Below are positions 40,837-50,516 of a stretch of DNA of 64,000 nucleotides, piece by piece. Each line of letters opens with the position of its first letter. Positions within the stretch are counted from its first letter, which is position 1. This DNA comes from Thermodesulfobacterium sp. (GTDB lineage Bacteria; Desulfobacterota; Thermodesulfobacteria; Thermodesulfobacteriales; Thermodesulfobacteriaceae): positions 1-64,000 of the forward strand of contig JACDNX010000009.1 of assembly GCA_017656385.1 (NCBI GenBank). Reading direction: 5' to 3'. Below the pieces are notes generated by a model that was not told the origin of the DNA, did not search any database, and worked only from the letters and a program-made list of their open reading frames with translations. A program made the position numbers and the translations under genes.

Positions 40837-41049
40837 AGTTTTAACCTCCTTATTCATTTTCTTTATAATAATTATATGAATTTTCTAAAAAGTTAAAAGA
40901 AGTAAAAAATCGTTTATTCTGTTTTGTATGATAATGTAAATGAGCTTTTTTAATTTAAGGAAAAACCGGTTTAAATTTTACTTCTTTTTGACTAAAGAAC
41001 TATCAAACATTAAAAATAGAGCATCTAATAGAAAGTATAAATTATTATG

Positions 41050-41129
41050 AAAAGCTCACGGGGGAGTCTCCGGCTCCCCTCGTGCTGCTGCTGGATCAAA
41101 CGGTGCCGGGACACCATCTCCAGTCAGCA
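41050..41129 (-). ncRNA. Structured small RNA candidate, element A
   Basis: A GC-rich island in AT-rich intergenic DNA. On the minus strand, GCTG-A-CTGGA (from 41128) pairs with TCCAG-CAGC. It encloses hairpin 1, GGTG-TCCCGG-CACC, and the internal loop GAT/GTTTGA. Hairpin 2 is CACG-a-GGGGAG..CTCCCC-CGTG (41084-41057) with a CCGG-bearing loop and a CTTTT tail, plausibly a terminator. Loop 1 and loop 2 each contain CCGG and can kiss. The fold matches elements B and C. A promoter at 41138-41166 is positioned to start it. It lies about 210 nt upstream of aor on the same strand. Class unknown to me. Confidence 0.65.
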
Positions 41130-41137
41130 TCAATAAT

Positions 41138-41166
41138 ACCATAGTACTAAAATTAAATTCTGTCAA
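41138..41166 (-). promoter_or_regulatory. Sigma-70-like promoter of element A
   Basis: On the minus strand TTGACA (41166-41161), a 17-nt spacer, then TATGGT (41143-41138). Nine bases separate the -10 box from the GCTG that opens element A, the same geometry as in element C. Confidence 0.65.
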
Positions 41167-41331
41167 TTTAAAAATTCAGTTTTATAAAACAGGATTTTTC
41201 CCAATCAAAATAATTAAAAATTTTTATAAACTTTAAACCGAAGCCAAAAAATTTATCTTAAAAATATTAAAAATAAGGATATAAGAATAATCTTTTAAAT
41301 TATGAGGAGAATTTTTAAGTGTTGAAAATTG

Positions 41332-41991
41332 CTATTCAAGAATTTTCTTACAAAATTCTTCCCAGCCGAATTTTTCAATAAAGCGTCCTAAACGCAGCCC
41401 TTTTTTGCCGTTTTCTTCGTAAAAATTGATAACTTTCTCAGCAATTTTTAAGGCTTCTTCTGTAGAAAGATTTCTTGCAAGCACGCGTGCAAGTAATGGA
41501 CGCGCACCGCCGCAACCACCTACAGTTACTGTCCATCCCTTAGGTTTACCAATAAATCCCAAATCTTTTATACAGGTTTCTGCACAATCATTTACACATC
41601 CGGAAACCCCTATTTTAAATTTGGTGGGTAAATCTTTTCCGTGATATCGTTTATCAAGCTCGGCTCCTAAGTTTAATGAATCTTGCTGTCCTAAACGGCA
41701 AAAGGTGATACCAGGACATACTTTAACACTACGAACACATAATCCTTTAGCAGCTCCTGGAACTACTCCCAAATCTTCCCAAACTTCATCAAGCTCTTCT
41801 TCTTTAAAACCTATTAAAGCAATTCTATTAGCACTGGTAATTTTTATAGCTTTAACTTCGTATTTTTTAGCTACTTCCAAAAGTTTTTGCAAAAAATCAA
41901 CCGTTAATAATCCAAGAGGCACATGAGGGACAATGGCATAGGTTTTCTTATCTCTCTGCAAAACTACGCCTTTTTCTCTGTCTTTTAACAT
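41332..41991 (-). CDS. Small siroheme sulfite reductase, assimilatory-type low-molecular-mass form
   Basis: A 219-residue single-subunit sulfite (or nitrite) reductase, close in size to the low-molecular-mass assimilatory-type enzyme described from Desulfovibrio. The siroheme/[4Fe-4S] motif is present as CX5C, VCPGITFCRLG (near 95-101), and CX3C, SGCVNDCAETC (near 135-139). IKITSANRIALIGF supplies the N-terminal ferredoxin-like half. It is not the DsrAB type of sulfate respiration. No redox partner is adjacent. Divergent from the HAD gene. Confidence 0.88.
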   Translation of the reverse strand: MLKDREKGVVLQRDKKTYAIVPHVPLGLLTVDFLQKLLEVAKKYEVKAIKITSANRIALIGFKEEELDEVWEDLGVVPGAAKGLCVRSVKVCPGITFCRLGQQDSLNLGAELDKRYHGKDLPTKFKIGVSGCVNDCAETCIKDLGFIGKPKGWTVTVGGCGGARPLLARVLARNLSTEEALKIAEKVINFYEENGKKGLRLGRFIEKFGWEEFCKKILE

Positions 41992-42113
41992 TTATAACCC
42001 CCAATTATTTATTTTATTAACTCAAAAGCTTAACATGATAAATCCATTTTTTCCATTGCTAATTTTAGATTTAAAACTTTAAATTTAAAAATAAGTAGTT
42101 AAATTTTATTCTT

Positions 42114-42767
42114 ATGTTAAGCAAAACAAGAATAAAAGTAATTTCTTTTGATATGGATGGAACTCTTGTGCCCACCGATTTCGTAAATGCTGTATGGCTT
42201 GAAGGTATACCTTCTTTATACGCTAAAAAACACAAAATTAGCTTTGAAAAAGCTTATGAAATAGTAACCAAAGCTTATAATGAAGTAGGAGAACACAGAA
42301 TAGAATGGTATTATCTTGATTACTGGCTAAAAAAGTTTGATCTTAAAATAACAAAAAAAGAACTATTTAATATGTATAAGGATAAAGTAAAAATTTATAA
42401 GGATGCCGAACATGTAATAAAATTCTTAAGTAATCGTTATACATTAATAGTTTCCTCCAATGCAGAAAAAGATTTTATCTGGTTTCAATTAAAACCTCTT
42501 TTACCCTATTTTCACCATGTATTTTCTGCAACCTCAGATTTAAAAGAAGTTAAAAAATCTCAAGAATTCTATGGAAAGGTTTGCGAATTACTTAAAGTGG
42601 AGCCAGAAGAAACTGTTCATATAGGAGATCATCTTGTGTTTGACTACTTAAATCCCCGTAAAATCGGTATAAATGCATTTTTACTAAACAGAAATCAACA
42701 TAAAATTGGATTAAAGGTAAACTCACTTAAAAATCTAAAAGAAATTTTAGATCTGCTAAATTTTTAA
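42114..42767 (+). CDS. HAD-family hydrolase
   Basis: A 217-residue phosphatase-like protein. Motif I is FDMDGTLVPTDF (near 12, nucleophile Asp), motif II VSSNAEKDF (near 111), and motif IV IGDHLVFDYLNPRKIGINAFLL (near 172). A helical cap lies between motifs I and II. The substrate is unknown. No Shine-Dalgarno is seen before the ATG, so it may be leaderless. It precedes cas6 by 53 nt on the same strand but HAD proteins are not known CRISPR components. Confidence 0.85.
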   Translation: MLSKTRIKVISFDMDGTLVPTDFVNAVWLEGIPSLYAKKHKISFEKAYEIVTKAYNEVGEHRIEWYYLDYWLKKFDLKITKKELFNMYKDKVKIYKDAEHVIKFLSNRYTLIVSSNAEKDFIWFQLKPLLPYFHHVFSATSDLKEVKKSQEFYGKVCELLKVEPEETVHIGDHLVFDYLNPRKIGINAFLLNRNQHKIGLKVNSLKNLKEILDLLNF

Positions 42768-42820
42768 GCTTTTGTCCTTAAAACTTGACACTTTTTCTCC
42801 CACTCATAGAATAAAATTTT

Positions 42821-43558
42821 ATGAGATTAGCAATTACTTTTGCTTCTAAAAATGAAGTTATTTTACCTATCCATTATAATGAACTTTTGCAAGGATTAAT
42901 TTATCATCTTTTAGATAAAGCCCTTGCTGAAAAACTTCACAATGAAGGTTTTGTTTACAGAAAGAGAAAATTTAAACTTTTTACCTTTTCTCGAATTTTT
43001 GGAAAGTTTAAGAAAGAAGGAAATAAGTTTAAAATTTCTTCACCTTTTAAGTTGTTTATTTCTTCTCCTTATACTGAAATGCTTCAGAGTTTTACCTCTA
43101 ATCTTTTGAAAAAACCAGAAATAAGGCTTGATCTAAATAAAGTCTGGATTGAATCCATAGAAGTTCTTGCAACTCCGGAGATAAAAAAAGAAATTTTTAT
43201 ACGGATGCTTTCTCCTCTGACAATTTATAGCACTCTTTATAGCCCTGATGGTAAAAAGAAAACCTATTATTACAACCCAGGTGAAAAAGAATTTTCAATG
43301 CTTATCAAAGAAAATATTGTCAAAAAGTATAAAGCTTTCTACGAAAAAATTCCTCCTTCAGAGGAATTTTTTATAAAACCTATTAAGTTAGAGAACAAAA
43401 ATGAGAAAATAGTTATTTACAAGGATTTTGTGATAAAAGGGTGGATGGGAAAATTTAAGTTGAAAGGAGAGCCAGAACTTTTAAAACTTGCTTATGATGC
43501 AGGACTTGGTGCTAAAAATTCCCAAGGTTTTGGAATGTTTGAGATCATATATAAATAA
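42821..43558 (+). CDS. cas6: CRISPR pre-crRNA endoribonuclease Cas6
   Basis: A 245-residue Cas6, which cuts the precursor CRISPR RNA within the repeat. MRLAITFASKNEVILPIHYNELLQGLIYHLLD is the family start, and the C-terminal glycine-rich loop is GLGAKNSQGFGMFEI (near 230). A candidate catalytic His lies near residue 30. It lies on the far side of the array from cas2-cas1-cas4, separated from the array by two structured RNA elements. Confidence 0.88.
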   Translation: MRLAITFASKNEVILPIHYNELLQGLIYHLLDKALAEKLHNEGFVYRKRKFKLFTFSRIFGKFKKEGNKFKISSPFKLFISSPYTEMLQSFTSNLLKKPEIRLDLNKVWIESIEVLATPEIKKEIFIRMLSPLTIYSTLYSPDGKKKTYYYNPGEKEFSMLIKENIVKKYKAFYEKIPPSEEFFIKPIKLENKNEKIVIYKDFVIKGWMGKFKLKGEPELLKLAYDAGLGAKNSQGFGMFEIIYK

Positions 43559-43647
43559 ATTTTAAAGCTTTGACTAAATTGTAAATTTCTTATAAATAGG
43601 TTTTAAACTTATGAATTTTGTATTATATTTTATTTTAAAATTTCAAC

Positions 43648-43727
43648 TACTGGTGGCAGGGGATGGTGTCCCGGCACCGTTTAACCCTGTATCACCAGCA
43701 TGGGTAGGACCGGAGACCCTCCCATAA
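43648..43727 (+). ncRNA. Structured small RNA candidate, element B
   Basis: On the plus strand GGTG-g-CAGGG (43652-43661) pairs with CCCTG-tat-CACC (43685-43696), extended by CT/AG outside. It encloses hairpin 1, GGTG-TCCCGG-CACC (43665-43678), and internal loop GAT/GTTTAA. Hairpin 2 is ATGGG..CCCAT (43700-43725) with CCGG in its loop at 43710-43713. Both loops carry CCGG. The outer stem differs from A and C but keeps pairing. No TTGACA-N17-TAnnnT promoter is at the expected place; TTGACT lies farther upstream at 43570-43575. It may be a weakly expressed or decayed copy, convergent with element C. Confidence 0.5.
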
Positions 43728-43794
43728 CCCTTTCTTGTTCAAATAATTTCATGTATACTTCTATTAAAGTTATTAAAAAGCCTAAAATAAATGA

Positions 43795-43901
43795 TAAAAT
43801 GGGCACCTCCGAAGAGGCGCCCATCCCGTCTCGTGGAGAGCCTGGGCTCCACGAAGTTGCTGCGGAGTCAAGCGGTCCCCAGGAGACCTCCTCCGTCAGC
43901 A
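43795..43901 (-). ncRNA. Structured small RNA candidate, element C, with UUCG hairpin end
   Basis: On the minus strand GCTG-A-CGGAG (43900-43891) pairs with CTCCG-CAGC (43867-43859) around hairpin 1 GGTC-TCCTGGG-GACC and internal loop GA/GCTTGA. Hairpin 2 is a perfect 8-bp stem, TCGTGGAG/CTCCACGA (43831-43854), with loop CCCAGGCT. Loop 1 CCTGG and loop 2 CCAGG are complementary, whereas A and B use CCGG/CCGG. A third hairpin, GGGCGCCTC-TTCG-GAGGTGCCC (43822-43801), has a cUUCGg tetraloop and a G-U pair only on this strand, and ATTTTAT follows, like a terminator. A promoter lies at 43910-43938. Confidence 0.68.
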
Positions 43902-43909
43902 CAAATAAT

Positions 43910-43938
43910 AAATTAATACAAGAAACTCCTTCTGTCAA
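43910..43938 (-). promoter_or_regulatory. Sigma-70-like promoter of element C
   Basis: On the minus strand a perfect TTGACA (43938-43933), 17 nt, then TAATTT (43915-43910). Nine bases separate the -10 box from the GCTG that opens element C, identical to element A. The -10 box is a weak match. Confidence 0.6.
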
Positions 43939-44059
43939 GTTTAAAGGAGAAGGCTGGATTATTGTTCCTTCTGAAAAAGGTAAATTTAGAGTTGCTTTTG
44001 AAGATTCAGAATTAGAACGACCGGTTAAAGATGCTCTTTATTCAGATTGTAGAAATTAA
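43939..44059 (+). pseudogene. Short coding relic before the CRISPR array
   Basis: The plus-strand frame ending at TAA (44057-44059) reads KFKGEGWIIVPSEKGKFRV then AFEDSELERPVKDALYSDCRN, which looks like the C-terminus of a real protein by composition. Upstream the frame runs through the antisense of element C and has no convincing start. It may be the remains of a gene cut by the insertion of elements B and C or of the array. No family recognised. Confidence 0.3.
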
Positions 44060-44064
44060 AACCC

Positions 44065-45196
44065 ATTTCAATTCCTCATAGGTAGGCTTAGACACCATAA
44101 CAAGAGGGCTTTCAAGCTTGCTTCTTAACTTTCAATTCCTCATAGGTAGGCTTAGACGGTTTATTGAGGTGTTTTAAGTGGCTTACAAAAAACTTTCAAT
44201 TCCTCATAGGTAGGCTTAGACTTATAAACTTCAGGAAATAAAATTGAAGTTGTATCTTCTTTCAATTCCTCATAGGTAGGCTTAGACAAGAAATCCCCTT
44301 CACAACTTTTGTCATTACTGGATCTTTCAATTCCTCATAGGTAGGCTTAGACTTTTGTTTCTTTATCTCTCAAAATTACTCTAATAGGCTTTCAATTCCT
44401 CATAGGTAGGCTTAGACCATTTTTGTTTTCAGCCATATTACAATCTCCCTCTCAACTTTCAATTCCTCATAGGTAGGCTTAGACAATTGCAACTTCAGCT
44501 TTATCAAATGAAATAACAACCTTTCAATTCCTCATAGGTAGGCTTAGACAGTGGTCTTAAATCAAAATCAGATAATGTATAAGGCTTTCAATTCCTCATA
44601 GGTAGGCTTAGACTCGTGGAATTTCATTACCAAATTGACTGCATTTTGCCTTTCAATTCCTCATAGGTAGGCTTAGACGCTTTTTCCTTGTCAGGTTGCC
44701 TGTGGTAAACATAACTTTCAATTCCTCATAGGTAGGCTTAGACTCGTGGAATTTCATTACCAAATTGACTGCATTTTGCCTTTCAATTCCTCATAGGTAG
44801 GCTTAGACGCGTTGTAGGTTTTGATTATGATCATAATTTCATACTTTCAATTCCTCATAGGTAGGCTTAGACTACATTTTTAGAAAACTCAGGCTTGGAA
44901 CACTTAAACTTTCAATTCCTCATAGGTAGGCTTAGACATTATTCAGAGAAACTTTCTTCAATAAGAGGTTTACTTTCAATTCCTCATAGGTAGGCTTAGA
45001 CCCTAATCCTAATGATTTAATTTATACTTTCAAGAAACTTTCAATTCCTCATAGGTAGGCTTAGACAATGTATTAACTATTCATGCGTTGCCTCTCAAGG
45101 AACTTTCAATTCCTCATAGGTAGGCTTAGACAGTAACTTTTAAAATTTTTCGTGTTTAACCAAAAGTCTTTCAATTCCTCATAGGTAGGCTTAGAC
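44065..45196 (-). CRISPR. CRISPR array, 18 repeats of 29 nt and 17 spacers, type I-B
   Basis: The repeat on the plus strand starts CTTTCAATTCCTCATAGG and ends TAGGCTTAGAC; read as transcribed (minus strand) it ends in ATTGAAAG, the usual crRNA 5' handle. Repeats begin at 44065, 44129, 44193, 44259, 44324, 44389, 44456, 44521, 44585, 44650, 44715, 44780, 44844, 44909, 44973, 45038, 45103 and 45168. Spacers are 35-38 nt. All repeats are identical except the leftmost, whose first base is A instead of C, as expected for the old, leader-distal end. Spacers at 44614-44649 and 44744-44779 are identical. One spacer (44418-44455) reads, on the minus strand, like a ribosome binding site and gene start. 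Confidence 0.98.
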
Positions 45197-47138: not shown

Positions 47139-47620
47139 TAAAAATTTAATAAAAAATTAAAATTTTTATTAAATTTAAATCAAAAAATTGTTTATTAATT
47201 TTTTTCGGATTAAATTAAATTTATTTAAACTTTACTAAAAATTGCAAAAATGGTATATTTTTTAAAAAGAAGAAAAAATCAAAATTAATAGACACGGAAT
47301 CTAATCTTATGATATTGCTGAAAATTTTGATAAAAAGAAAAAAGGTTAATTAAGTATGTAGAAAAGTTAAAAAAATGGATAAAAAGGATTGAATATCGAT
47401 TATCTAGTAAATTTTATTTCCTATACCACAAAAAGAGTTTGAAAAAGTTAAAAAAAGACTAAGGCTGGTTAAGGATGTATTGAAGAAGATAAAAATTTTT
47501 AAACTGGGTTGACTTTCGTTGCAGAGGGAAGTAGGGAGCTTTGAATAAGATACAAGGCAGGTTTGATGAAAAAAATTCAATGAGTATTTTAGATGCTGAA
47601 GGGTGTTGAAGGGTCGCGGA
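47139..47620. other. AT-rich intergenic region between divergent cas4 and cas8, with coding debris
   Basis: No intact gene. On the plus strand one frame reads FPIPQKEFEKVKKRLRLV then KDVLKKIKIFKLG to a stop at about 47510, and another near 47545-47605 reads RFDEKNSMSILDAEG. Both look like fragments of decayed coding sequence. A TTGACT lies at about 47511 but no good -10 follows at 17 nt. No GC-rich structured element is present. Confidence 0.4.
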
Positions 47621-48982
47621 ATGGCAGAAATAAGCACAATTAGAAGTTTATTAGAAAAAAGAATATGTTGGGTCGGGAACGTCTCTCAAAGAGGAAAAGC
47701 GAGGAAAATCCCGATAGATTTTGATGGTTTATTGGGTGCTGTACTACAGGGTATAATAGATCCACCTAATAAAATAAACTTACCTAAAAAATTGAAGCAA
47801 AAATGTAATCAAGTAAAAACCGTAGATGATTGGATAAATATCATATTAGAATACCTAATGCAAACAAAGGATGTAAGCTCATCCCATTTTCCGACTATTT
47901 TACAAAAAAGTGAAGCTCCAAATTACCATTTTTCTGACTATAGGCTTACCATAGATGATTCATCAAAAGTGAACATGCTTTATTGGCTTTTGAAGTTTTA
48001 TTATGTTGAACTATCCCGTGAAAGACGAAAAGTAGTTGTAGGTGTTAGAACCAAAGATGAAATCGTTGAAAATATTATTCGTGATTTTAGGAGAGTTGGA
48101 AGTCGATTTGATTTTGAGTTAAATCGGGGGAGGGTCGATAAGACGATTTTAGACAAGGAAATTACATTTTATATACCTCCTAGCCCCTCATCCACATACT
48201 TCACTCTACTTTCACTTCTTTGTGCTATACTACAGACCTTTGAGTACATTCACGCAGATAGTAGAATTTCTTTAAATTTAGATTTTGAGGCGCTGGTTTT
48301 GAGTAATACAGGAGGAAAGAAGTGGTCCACAGTATACCATCCAATTATAAACCTCACGAGAATTTACAATATATTCTTTAGACCAGAAGAACTAACCGAA
48401 AATGGAAAGTCAAAGTTTATTGTGTTTTTGGAGTCTTTATTACCACCAAGGCTTACAAATCAAAATATTATTGACTCATATTATACACAACTATCTTCTC
48501 TGGCCTTTTCTATCCTCTTGGAAGGTTATTTGAACGTTCATAAACTTTCTCAGGTTATAAGCGAGAAAATCTCACTTGAATTAAGATCAAAAAGAGAAAA
48601 TCAAAATTATAAATTAGGAAATATCTACTACTTGGAGCACGTTCATACAAAATTTTTTGGAGGTGATAGTATGAGCGAAGATTTTGGGAAGTTAAGAAAA
48701 CAGATGATAGCCATTGCATTCAATATAAGCGAGCTTGCTAAAAAAGGAGATACACAACGTAGTTTATTAAAAAGAATAATACTTGACTTAAAAAATGAAG
48801 AAACACCTGTGACATTTGTAGAAAAACTTGTTTCGTACTTACCAAGGCTTGAAAGAGAAGGAATTAAGATAACATTACCACAGGAATTGATTTTATTACC
48901 AGTTAGAGAATTTTTTATAACTAAAAATGAATTTATTGTAATTTTATGGAATAAATACATGGGAGGAGGTGATATTACATGA
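47621..48982 (+). CDS. cas8: Type I-B Cascade large subunit, Cas8-like (by position)
   Basis: A 453-residue protein from the ATG at 47621, with AAGGG upstream; a GTG at 47603 would add 6 residues. I do not recognise a family motif. Its place before cas7-cas5-cas3 and its size fit the Cas8b/Cst1 large subunit that reads the PAM. The CxxC zinc pairs typical of many Cst1/Cas8b proteins are absent: the two cysteines near the start (KRICWVG, KQKCNQ) are isolated. Alternatives are a divergent Cas8a/b. Its ATGA overlap with cas7 shows joint translation. Codon use is less AT-biased than in cas1, cas2, cas4 and cas6. Confidence 0.65.
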   Translation: MAEISTIRSLLEKRICWVGNVSQRGKARKIPIDFDGLLGAVLQGIIDPPNKINLPKKLKQKCNQVKTVDDWINIILEYLMQTKDVSSSHFPTILQKSEAPNYHFSDYRLTIDDSSKVNMLYWLLKFYYVELSRERRKVVVGVRTKDEIVENIIRDFRRVGSRFDFELNRGRVDKTILDKEITFYIPPSPSSTYFTLLSLLCAILQTFEYIHADSRISLNLDFEALVLSNTGGKKWSTVYHPIINLTRIYNIFFRPEELTENGKSKFIVFLESLLPPRLTNQNIIDSYYTQLSSLAFSILLEGYLNVHKLSQVISEKISLELRSKRENQNYKLGNIYYLEHVHTKFFGGDSMSEDFGKLRKQMIAIAFNISELAKKGDTQRSLLKRIILDLKNEETPVTFVEKLVSYLPRLEREGIKITLPQELILLPVREFFITKNEFIVILWNKYMGGGDIT

Positions 48983-49866
48983 GAAAAATAGTAATTGGTC
49001 TCCTAACGAGGGTCTCAGGAAATGTAAATGCAAATGAGATAGAAGGAGATAGAATCAGAATAAAAAAGCTTGTTTCAATAGATGGAGAGACTTATCCTTT
49101 TGTTTCTGCAAGAGCTGTTAAAAGAGGAATTAGAGAGAAATTTGTAGAGTGGGGCTTTGAAGTAGATCAATTTAGGATTGGTGAAGGTGAAAAATTGGCA
49201 GATAGTGGAGACCCTATAAAATACGTTGACAATGATTTGTTTGGTTATTTGTACATAAAAGGCAACAGACAAAGACCAAGAGTGTCTCCTATTTCAATGT
49301 CACCTATAATTGCTGTTAAGCATACGCCGATAGAAATTGACTTTGGGGGCAGATTTCCAAAAGAGATCGGCGAAACAAACCCAACACCATTTGAAATTGA
49401 GGTTGCTGATTTCATTGGTCTAATGAAAGTTGTAATTACAGAAAGGTGCGGGATATTCACCGAAAGTGAAAAAACTGATCAAATCAAGAAGTGGGATGAA
49501 TATGTCAAGGAAAACAAAGTGCAGAAGGAAACGAGAAACAAGGCATTATATGTGCTTGAAGACGAAGAACGGATTAAAAGAGTTACAGCTTTCTTAGAAA
49601 TTCTTTTTAACGAGGGTTGGGCCTATCCAAGGAGAGCAAATTACTTTGCAATGGCAGAGCATTTTTCGGCAATAGTATACTGTGGAGAAAAGCTGTATCC
49701 TGTTTGGAAGAACTTTGACGAGAACTACCAGTTTACTCAACCAAATATTTTAATTGAAGACCGTGAGAAGCTGTTTGGACCGTATAATCTAAAGATCGCC
49801 TCTGTCTTGAAAGAAGATATCGAGAAAATGGCAACTTGGCTGGTGACTGGACAATGGAAAAAATAG
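48979..49866 (+). CDS. cas7: Type I-B Cascade backbone protein Cas7 (Cst2/DevR family)
   Basis: A 295-residue RAMP protein that forms the crRNA-coating filament. LLTRVSGNVNANEIEGDRIRIKKLVSIDGETYPFVSARAVKRGIRE is the typical DevR/Cst2 start, and FGGRFPKEIGETNPTPFEIEVADFIGLMKVVITERCG the mid-region. YPRRANYFAMAEHFSAIVYC is a conserved helix near 218. The end overlaps cas5 by 13 nt. Confidence 0.9.
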   Translation: MRKIVIGLLTRVSGNVNANEIEGDRIRIKKLVSIDGETYPFVSARAVKRGIREKFVEWGFEVDQFRIGEGEKLADSGDPIKYVDNDLFGYLYIKGNRQRPRVSPISMSPIIAVKHTPIEIDFGGRFPKEIGETNPTPFEIEVADFIGLMKVVITERCGIFTESEKTDQIKKWDEYVKENKVQKETRNKALYVLEDEERIKRVTAFLEILFNEGWAYPRRANYFAMAEHFSAIVYCGEKLYPVWKNFDENYQFTQPNILIEDREKLFGPYNLKIASVLKEDIEKMATWLVTGQWKK

Positions 49867-50516
49867 GATTAACTGTAGACGTTTTATTCGATTTGGCCCA
49901 CTTTAGGGTTCATACAACAATGAAGGGTAGGTCGTCTTATCTACTTCCACTGCCTACAACGATAATTGGTTTCTTTTTCTCAATTCTTGGAAAAAGTCGG
50001 GAATATTATATTGAAGAAAGAAAGAATTTTAAAGCTGGTGCCCAAATTATTGATATTGGCGGTGTTTGCCGTGAGAACGCACAGTTATTAAAACTCAAAA
50101 CTGGGAGGGAAGATAGAACAACGGAGGAGCTAATGTTACTTCTTAGACCCAAATATAAATTTGCAATCTGGGGCAAGCAAGAGACAATTTACTTGCTACA
50201 TAAAAAGCTCAACAATTTTGAGTTCGATTTCGTACCCTATGCTGGAATAAGCGATTTTATATTCTTTGATATAGAAAATCCAAGAATTCATGAACATTTT
50301 GAAGAGACGTACACCGTAAAAGACTCATATGCTCCAAGAAATATTGTAGATTCAGTAGAGCTATCGGAAAAGAGTATAGTCTATAATCTTCCCTACACAT
50401 ACTCGGGTAAGCCAGAATTTGTTGTAATGGGGATCAATGTTGGTTTTAAATTAAAAAATAAGATTATATCGATTGATGGTGTTCCACTCTATGACTGTTT
50501 TCTGGTGACAAGATGA
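49854..50516 (+). CDS. cas5: Type I-B Cascade protein Cas5
   Basis: A 220-residue RAMP protein that caps the 5' handle of the crRNA. VDVLFDLAHFRVHTTMKGRSSYLLPLPTTIIGFFFSILG matches the Cas5t/Cas5b start (hydrophobic strand, then LPxPTTIxG). I use the ATG at 49854; a TTG at 49836 is possible. The C-terminus ends GVPLYDCFLVTR. It overlaps cas7 and cas3 by 13 and 4 nt. Confidence 0.88.
   Translation: MEKIGLTVDVLFDLAHFRVHTTMKGRSSYLLPLPTTIIGFFFSILGKSREYYIEERKNFKAGAQIIDIGGVCRENAQLLKLKTGREDRTTEELMLLLRPKYKFAIWGKQETIYLLHKKLNNFEFDFVPYAGISDFIFFDIENPRIHEHFEETYTVKDSYAPRNIVDSVELSEKSIVYNLPYTYSGKPEFVVMGINVGFKLKNKIISIDGVPLYDCFLVTR

Follow-up and report, generated by a model that had tools for sequence, protein, structure and literature searches.

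What are the three short, GC-rich elements, A, B and C, that lie in a 64-kb stretch of DNA (the window, meaning the whole of the stretch that was analysed), do they form one RNA family, and what could such an RNA do? The elements were placed as follows.

41056..41130, minus strand: element A, with a bipartite P1 stem, a kink-turn (k-turn)-like internal loop GAU/GUUUGA, P2 loop UCCCGG and P3 loop CCGGAGA
43650..43727, plus strand: element B, with the fold common to A and C and loops UCCCGG and ACCGGAGAC
43828..43902, minus strand: element C, with the fold common to A and B and loops UCCUGGG and CCCAGGCU

The preliminary description had reported three elements with one shared fold, standing as GC-rich islands in AT-rich intergenic DNA. 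The three elements and their shared fold were confirmed. All of the pairings that it had listed were also present, namely the outer stem swaps GCTG/CAGC versus GGTG/CACC, the inner stems CTGGA/TCCAG, CAGGG/CCCTG and CGGAG/CTCCG, and the loops CCGG/CCGG and CCTGG/CCAGG. The GC-rich islands held as well, as the only 75-bp segments with GC of 0.58 or more in the window (mean GC 0.32) were two tRNAs and A, B and C. Two points were corrected: the coordinates given for C had also taken in a downstream terminator hairpin, and the setting is not plain intergenic DNA, since A, B and C lie inside decayed fragments of a phage gene (for A and B, the reading frame was inspected). The kink-turn, the promoters and the phage origin were absent from that description.

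R1, a covariance model derived from A, B and C, was run on 30 genomes of the bacterial family and found four new members, D through G, at 37.9-67.8 bits, none of which had been used in building it. A second model (R2), built from the seven sequences A-G, added one viral copy, H, for a total of 8 known members (A-H).

G012:C172:244-315: element D, found with R1
G045:C87:1891-1968 and 2046-2124: elements E and F, a tandem pair, found with R1
G012:C145:7021-7089, minus strand: element G, found with R1
Viral contig IMGVR_UViG_3300017593_001843: element H, found with R2 at 63.1 bits

No additional hosts were found in a phylum sample of 395 genomes, and BLAST of phage and plasmid collections found nothing. 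The order-level and class-level searches both covered one set of 41 genomes. An Rfam scan (4227 families, gathering score) matched only two tRNAs and left the elements unmatched, in agreement with the earlier failure to place them in a known class. Scanning the elements against Rfam at a permissive threshold gave only chance matches, none credible. Exact-pattern scans gave two viral matches for the A/B loop, both judged to be chance on context and score, and two for the C/H loop, one of which was judged to be chance. A pattern scan of genome contigs gave four actinobacterial matches, with a pattern that forced an extra base and was unable to match A, B, D or G. We consider this previously uncatalogued RNA family, together with its mobile origin, to be very likely.

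The shared fold and its covarying loop-loop contact are supported by the 8-sequence alignment, in which 94.8% of cells were paired and 18 of 27 pairs showed compensatory changes on both sides; the new homologues carry compensatory changes, as the preliminary description had required. The covariation score was 0.517, compared to 0.202 +/- 0.029 for shuffled alignments, and 0 of 500 shuffles scored as high. The score gains from the fitting of the alignment to the structure, and kin sequences were counted more than once. However, structures slid along the same alignment scored 0.134 or less, about a quarter or less of the true value, and members had been found independently, so neither fitting nor kinship is a likely source of the covariation. 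The contact between the P2 and P3 loops (L2-L3) occurs in three forms, CCCGG/CCGGG, CCUGG/CCAGG and CUCGG/CCGAG. Complementarity between each copy's own L2 and L3 exceeded that of permuted loops (p=0.005) and of letter-shuffled loops (0 of 20000), and in A, B and D it comprises just four contiguous Watson-Crick pairs.

The internal loop of P1 carries GA on its 5' side and (N)YUU-RA on its 3' side, with AUU in H. GA stands opposite RA in seven of the eight copies and opposite UA in F, and an extra, fourth unpaired base makes a four-nucleotide bulge in C, E and H. Published k-turns have a three-nucleotide bulge and then tandem G.A/A.G pairs between a C-helix and an NC-helix (PMC5061560, PMC4316175). 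With P2 as the C-helix and P1 as the NC-helix, the internal loop can be read as this layout, although some copies depart from the textbook form (the bulge of C, E and H, and the UA of F in place of GA). This assignment is inferred from sequence alone, without three-dimensional data, as is the bend of P2 towards P3 that a k-turn would produce and that the covarying loops require.

Signals for transcription were found beside several copies, and those in the window were as follows.

41138..41166, minus strand: promoter-like site of A, TTGACA (41161-41166), 17-nt spacer, TATGGT (41138-41143), 7 nt upstream of the modelled start (p=0.0003)
43636..43641, plus strand: possible -10 of B, TAAAAT, with no convincing -35 (p=0.11, weak)
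43910..43938, minus strand: promoter-like site of C, TTGACA (43933-43938), 17-nt spacer, TAATTT (43910-43915) (p=0.0008)
43790..43827, minus strand: intrinsic-terminator-like hairpin of C, GGGCGCCUC-UUCG-GAGGUGCCC then UUUUAU, read from the sequence

Sigma70-like hexamers precede five copies (A, C, D, E and H), and their -10 ends 7-8 nt upstream of where the model begins (p 0.0003-0.003 in comparison with positions matched for local GC). The signal was weak in B and F, and the same hexamer test found no promoter for G. Because the upstream DNA of C, D and H is homologous, the promoter cases amount to about three independent ones. Two copies, C and H, have a strong terminator hairpin with U after it, the phage copy having the same hairpin with GGGCACCUC/GAGGUGCCC. 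No copy other than A leads a gene, and the elements therefore look like independent RNA genes. We consider free-standing RNA genes likely, rather than riboswitches, with transcription inferred in the absence of transcript data.

The phage copy H lies antisense within an open phage gene for a 1096-aa polyvalent protein, in which PBECR2, predicted to be an RNase domain, occupies residues 376-467 and the RNA corresponds to about residues 482-507, directly after it. Such polyvalent proteins have been described as injected along with the DNA, and PBECR as a predicted RNase (PMC5512222). Three related phage contigs have the polyvalent gene without the PBECR2 module and without the RNA. Among 80 loci fetched by capsid-protein similarity, the RNA was present only in H's own contig, and a search for further phages with the PBECR2 module recovered that contig only. 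The absence of the RNA from close relatives and from capsid-similar loci makes it look accessory. An essential, pRNA-like packaging RNA would be expected throughout the group, which was not the case, and we consider that role unlikely, with the reservation that the relatives' contigs may be incomplete. The PBECR2 link itself has one intact case behind it, together with fragments of that same gene.

The tandem copies E and F belong to a 9.96-kb integrative element (L021 18-10027) bounded by 51-bp att-like direct repeats, with genes for an integrase, a CHC2/Toprim primase, an Arc-like repressor and Doc (Doc/Fic). No structural genes were recognised in it, no PBECR domain was recognised in the 10 of its proteins that were scanned, and its primase had no relatives among the viral contigs. 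It is possibly a phage-satellite-like element, which is not proven.

The remaining copies are chromosomal, and the relevant features of the window were as follows.

40970..41055, plus strand: remnant of the phage polyvalent gene at A, reading TKELSNIKNRASNRKYKLL, a stop, then KAH (compare phage PKKLPNIKNRILKGEYKIKWAPH); RNA A is antisense; reading frame inspected
43778..44060, plus strand: phage polyvalent-gene fragment around C, with C antisense within it
42821..43558, plus strand: cas6, immediately upstream of B; a neighbour, with no role in the system shown
44065..45196, no strand assigned: CRISPR array of 18 repeats CTTTCAATTCCTCATAGGTAGGCTTAGAC (read on the plus strand); the phage fragment stops 5 nt before the first repeat

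By inspection, remnants of the polyvalent gene, carrying stops, can be recognised on the flanks of A and B. Around C, 275 bp (43786-44060) share 89% DNA identity with viral contig L028 (11397-11674). D is antisense in a polyvalent-gene fragment located between CRISPR repeats, and both C and D abut such repeats. The flanks of C, D and H are homologous on both sides of the RNA.

A 13.3-kb phage contig was searched against 14 genomes of the genus, with G011 set apart as the carrier of a related phage. Outside G011 there were three substantial chromosomal matches (in G000, G012 and G002), and all three overlapped the RNA; the remaining matches were merely 24-38 bp. Weak fragments may have been missed, and not all first-look candidates were scored. 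The chance that three fragments of such lengths, placed at random, would all overlap the RNA is about 1.5e-5, a figure that overstates the case, as the RNA itself had led to two of these matches. The sole unbiased match is that of G002, for which chance overlap alone is about 0.012. A preference of chromosomal phage matches for the RNA locus is therefore possible; these data are suggestive and do not prove it. The G002 copy has decayed to P3 and the terminator (about 1.3 kb from a CRISPR array), and P1 is broken in G, so hosts do not always retain the RNA.

Several observations were made in passing around these loci. In three genomes, phage-gene fragments bearing the RNA adjoin a CRISPR array or lie close to one (window 43786-44065; L023 51-504; G002 L067 4062-4152). 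The fragment of about 395 bp in G012 sits between a degenerate and a good CRISPR repeat and resembles a giant spacer; L023 has a second large insert (570-1322, with a PIN-domain gene) between the CRISPR repeats at 541-569 and 1323-1351. Type I-B cas8b, cas7 and cas5 lie near the window's array at 47603-50516, and the spacer TCGTGGAATTTCATTACCAAATTGACTGCATTTTGC occurs in that array twice (44585-44800, spacers 9 and 11). No convincing match was found between the window's CRISPR spacers and the phage and satellite contigs. A degenerate CRISPR repeat upstream of B, possible by eye, fell below threshold. By eye only, G (L022 around 7089) is fused to an apparent hydrogenase maturation protease start (MKKAIVVGIGNPNFRDDG).

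The accessory distribution, the mobile carriers, the fold kept despite sequence divergence and the PBECR2 neighbour suggest a shape-dependent conflict RNA. The explanation that we propose is an accessory, free-standing small-RNA gene, carried by a phage and a satellite-like element and taken up into host chromosomes. Transcription from a sigma70-type promoter would give an RNA of about 75-120 nt. A P1 kink-turn (P1-GA-P2 opposite P2-(N)YUU-RA-P1) would fold P2 back, and the P2 loop would pair with the P3 loop over 4-6 bp. It would be the shape of this compact RNA that matters, most probably through the binding of a protein, in a conflict between phage and host or between phages. An RNase would be the preferred partner, given the antisense position of H right after the PBECR2 of a presumably injected polyvalent protein; the RNA may neutralise the PBECR2 RNase in the producing cell, as an RNA antitoxin or decoy, and satellites or hosts with the RNA would gain protection. 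As a whole, this explanation is slightly more apt to be wrong than right. Its RNase-neutralising step we judge clearly more apt to fail than to hold. The protein partner is inferred, and the benefit to hosts is likewise an inference; neither a transcript nor a partner has been shown. A bolder reading, which is no more than possible, is that of a new RNA class serving as a transferable immunity or antitoxin module, with which the phage tames an injected RNase, the satellite-like element holds tandem copies, and bacteria capture the RNA preferentially at CRISPR loci as an added defence.

Other scenarios can be considered. The one that survives best, and remains possible, is a regulatory or immunity RNA of phage or satellite that acts by base pairing, like P4 CI RNA or as an antisense to the polyvalent mRNA, whose captors would gain superinfection immunity. 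In its favour, H runs antisense to the mRNA for the polyvalent protein, the satellite-like element holds two copies in tandem, and the captured copies A, C and D retain promoter-like sites and a mostly intact fold. However, the loops change jointly and the stems diverge, so no fixed external target is conserved, and no polyvalent gene was recognised in the element carrying E and F. It is unlikely that the RNA is an anti-CRISPR, or otherwise tied to CRISPR, with Cas6 or the type I-B complex as its target. B follows cas6, C and D adjoin repeats, and the G002 remnant is close to an array, but, examined as possible repeat mimics, the elements were no closer to the window's repeat than their shuffled versions were (repeats of other arrays were left out), and no CRISPR repeat was found near H or G with the window's repeat as query. 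Also unlikely is an element that works as DNA, without RNA (a hairpin for recombination, packaging or replication, or else a small mobile element). Its support is the location in and at the junctions of phage fragments and the closeness of several copies; against it, promoter-like sites and terminators line up with the element, it is missing from close phage relatives, C, D and H have both flanks in common and so did not arise there by a lone jump, and, as weak evidence, stem G-U exceeds A-C on the RNA strand by 7 to 3. A riboswitch or cis-regulatory leader is very unlikely. The k-turn plus loop-loop architecture recalls lysine and SAM-I riboswitches, and A is directed towards a gene some 200 nt off whose product resembles a tungsten-type aldehyde ferredoxin oxidoreductase. 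Against this reading, A is the only copy that stands in sense ahead of a gene; B and C face each other, H and D run antisense to the gene that contains them, C and H are followed by terminators, and Rfam has no match.

A free-standing conflict RNA remains our preferred reading. What the family offers is an uncatalogued RNA with tertiary structure of riboswitch grade in what is apparently a mobile RNA gene instead of a riboswitch. Should the link to the RNase prove true, this would be an RNA countering a phage-delivered nuclease, with the chromosomal copies as captured immunity genes. Because the RNA is small and covaries clearly, its fold and its partner can both be put to a direct test.

Known systems resemble this RNA in part. 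The lysine riboswitch has a loop-loop interaction and SAM-I a loop-receptor interaction (PMC4316175), and in both, as proposed here, the terminal loop of the k-turn C-helix makes a tertiary contact elsewhere in the RNA. In contrast to them, the new RNA appears to form free-standing genes with no consistent 5' leader position, and has two hairpin units, no multi-way junction and no Rfam match. The RNA of type III toxin-antitoxin systems (ToxI) is comparable as a small folded RNA beside a predicted RNase, with tandem copies in one element. However, the new RNA has a proposed k-turn and kissing loop instead of a pseudoknot repeat, the predicted RNase near it belongs, as a single domain, to a polyvalent phage protein, and no ToxN/CptN/TenpN-type toxin gene was matched among the genes scanned (some neighbours were unscanned). 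P4 CI RNA is likewise a small RNA of a satellite-type element; its fold is not known to resemble that of the new RNA, for which a sequence-based target was not found. Phage-derived sRNAs, as reviewed (PMC12197685), are alike in kind, being phage-encoded small RNA genes; compared with them in general, and not singly, the new family stands apart in its strongly covarying tertiary fold and its chromosomal copies.
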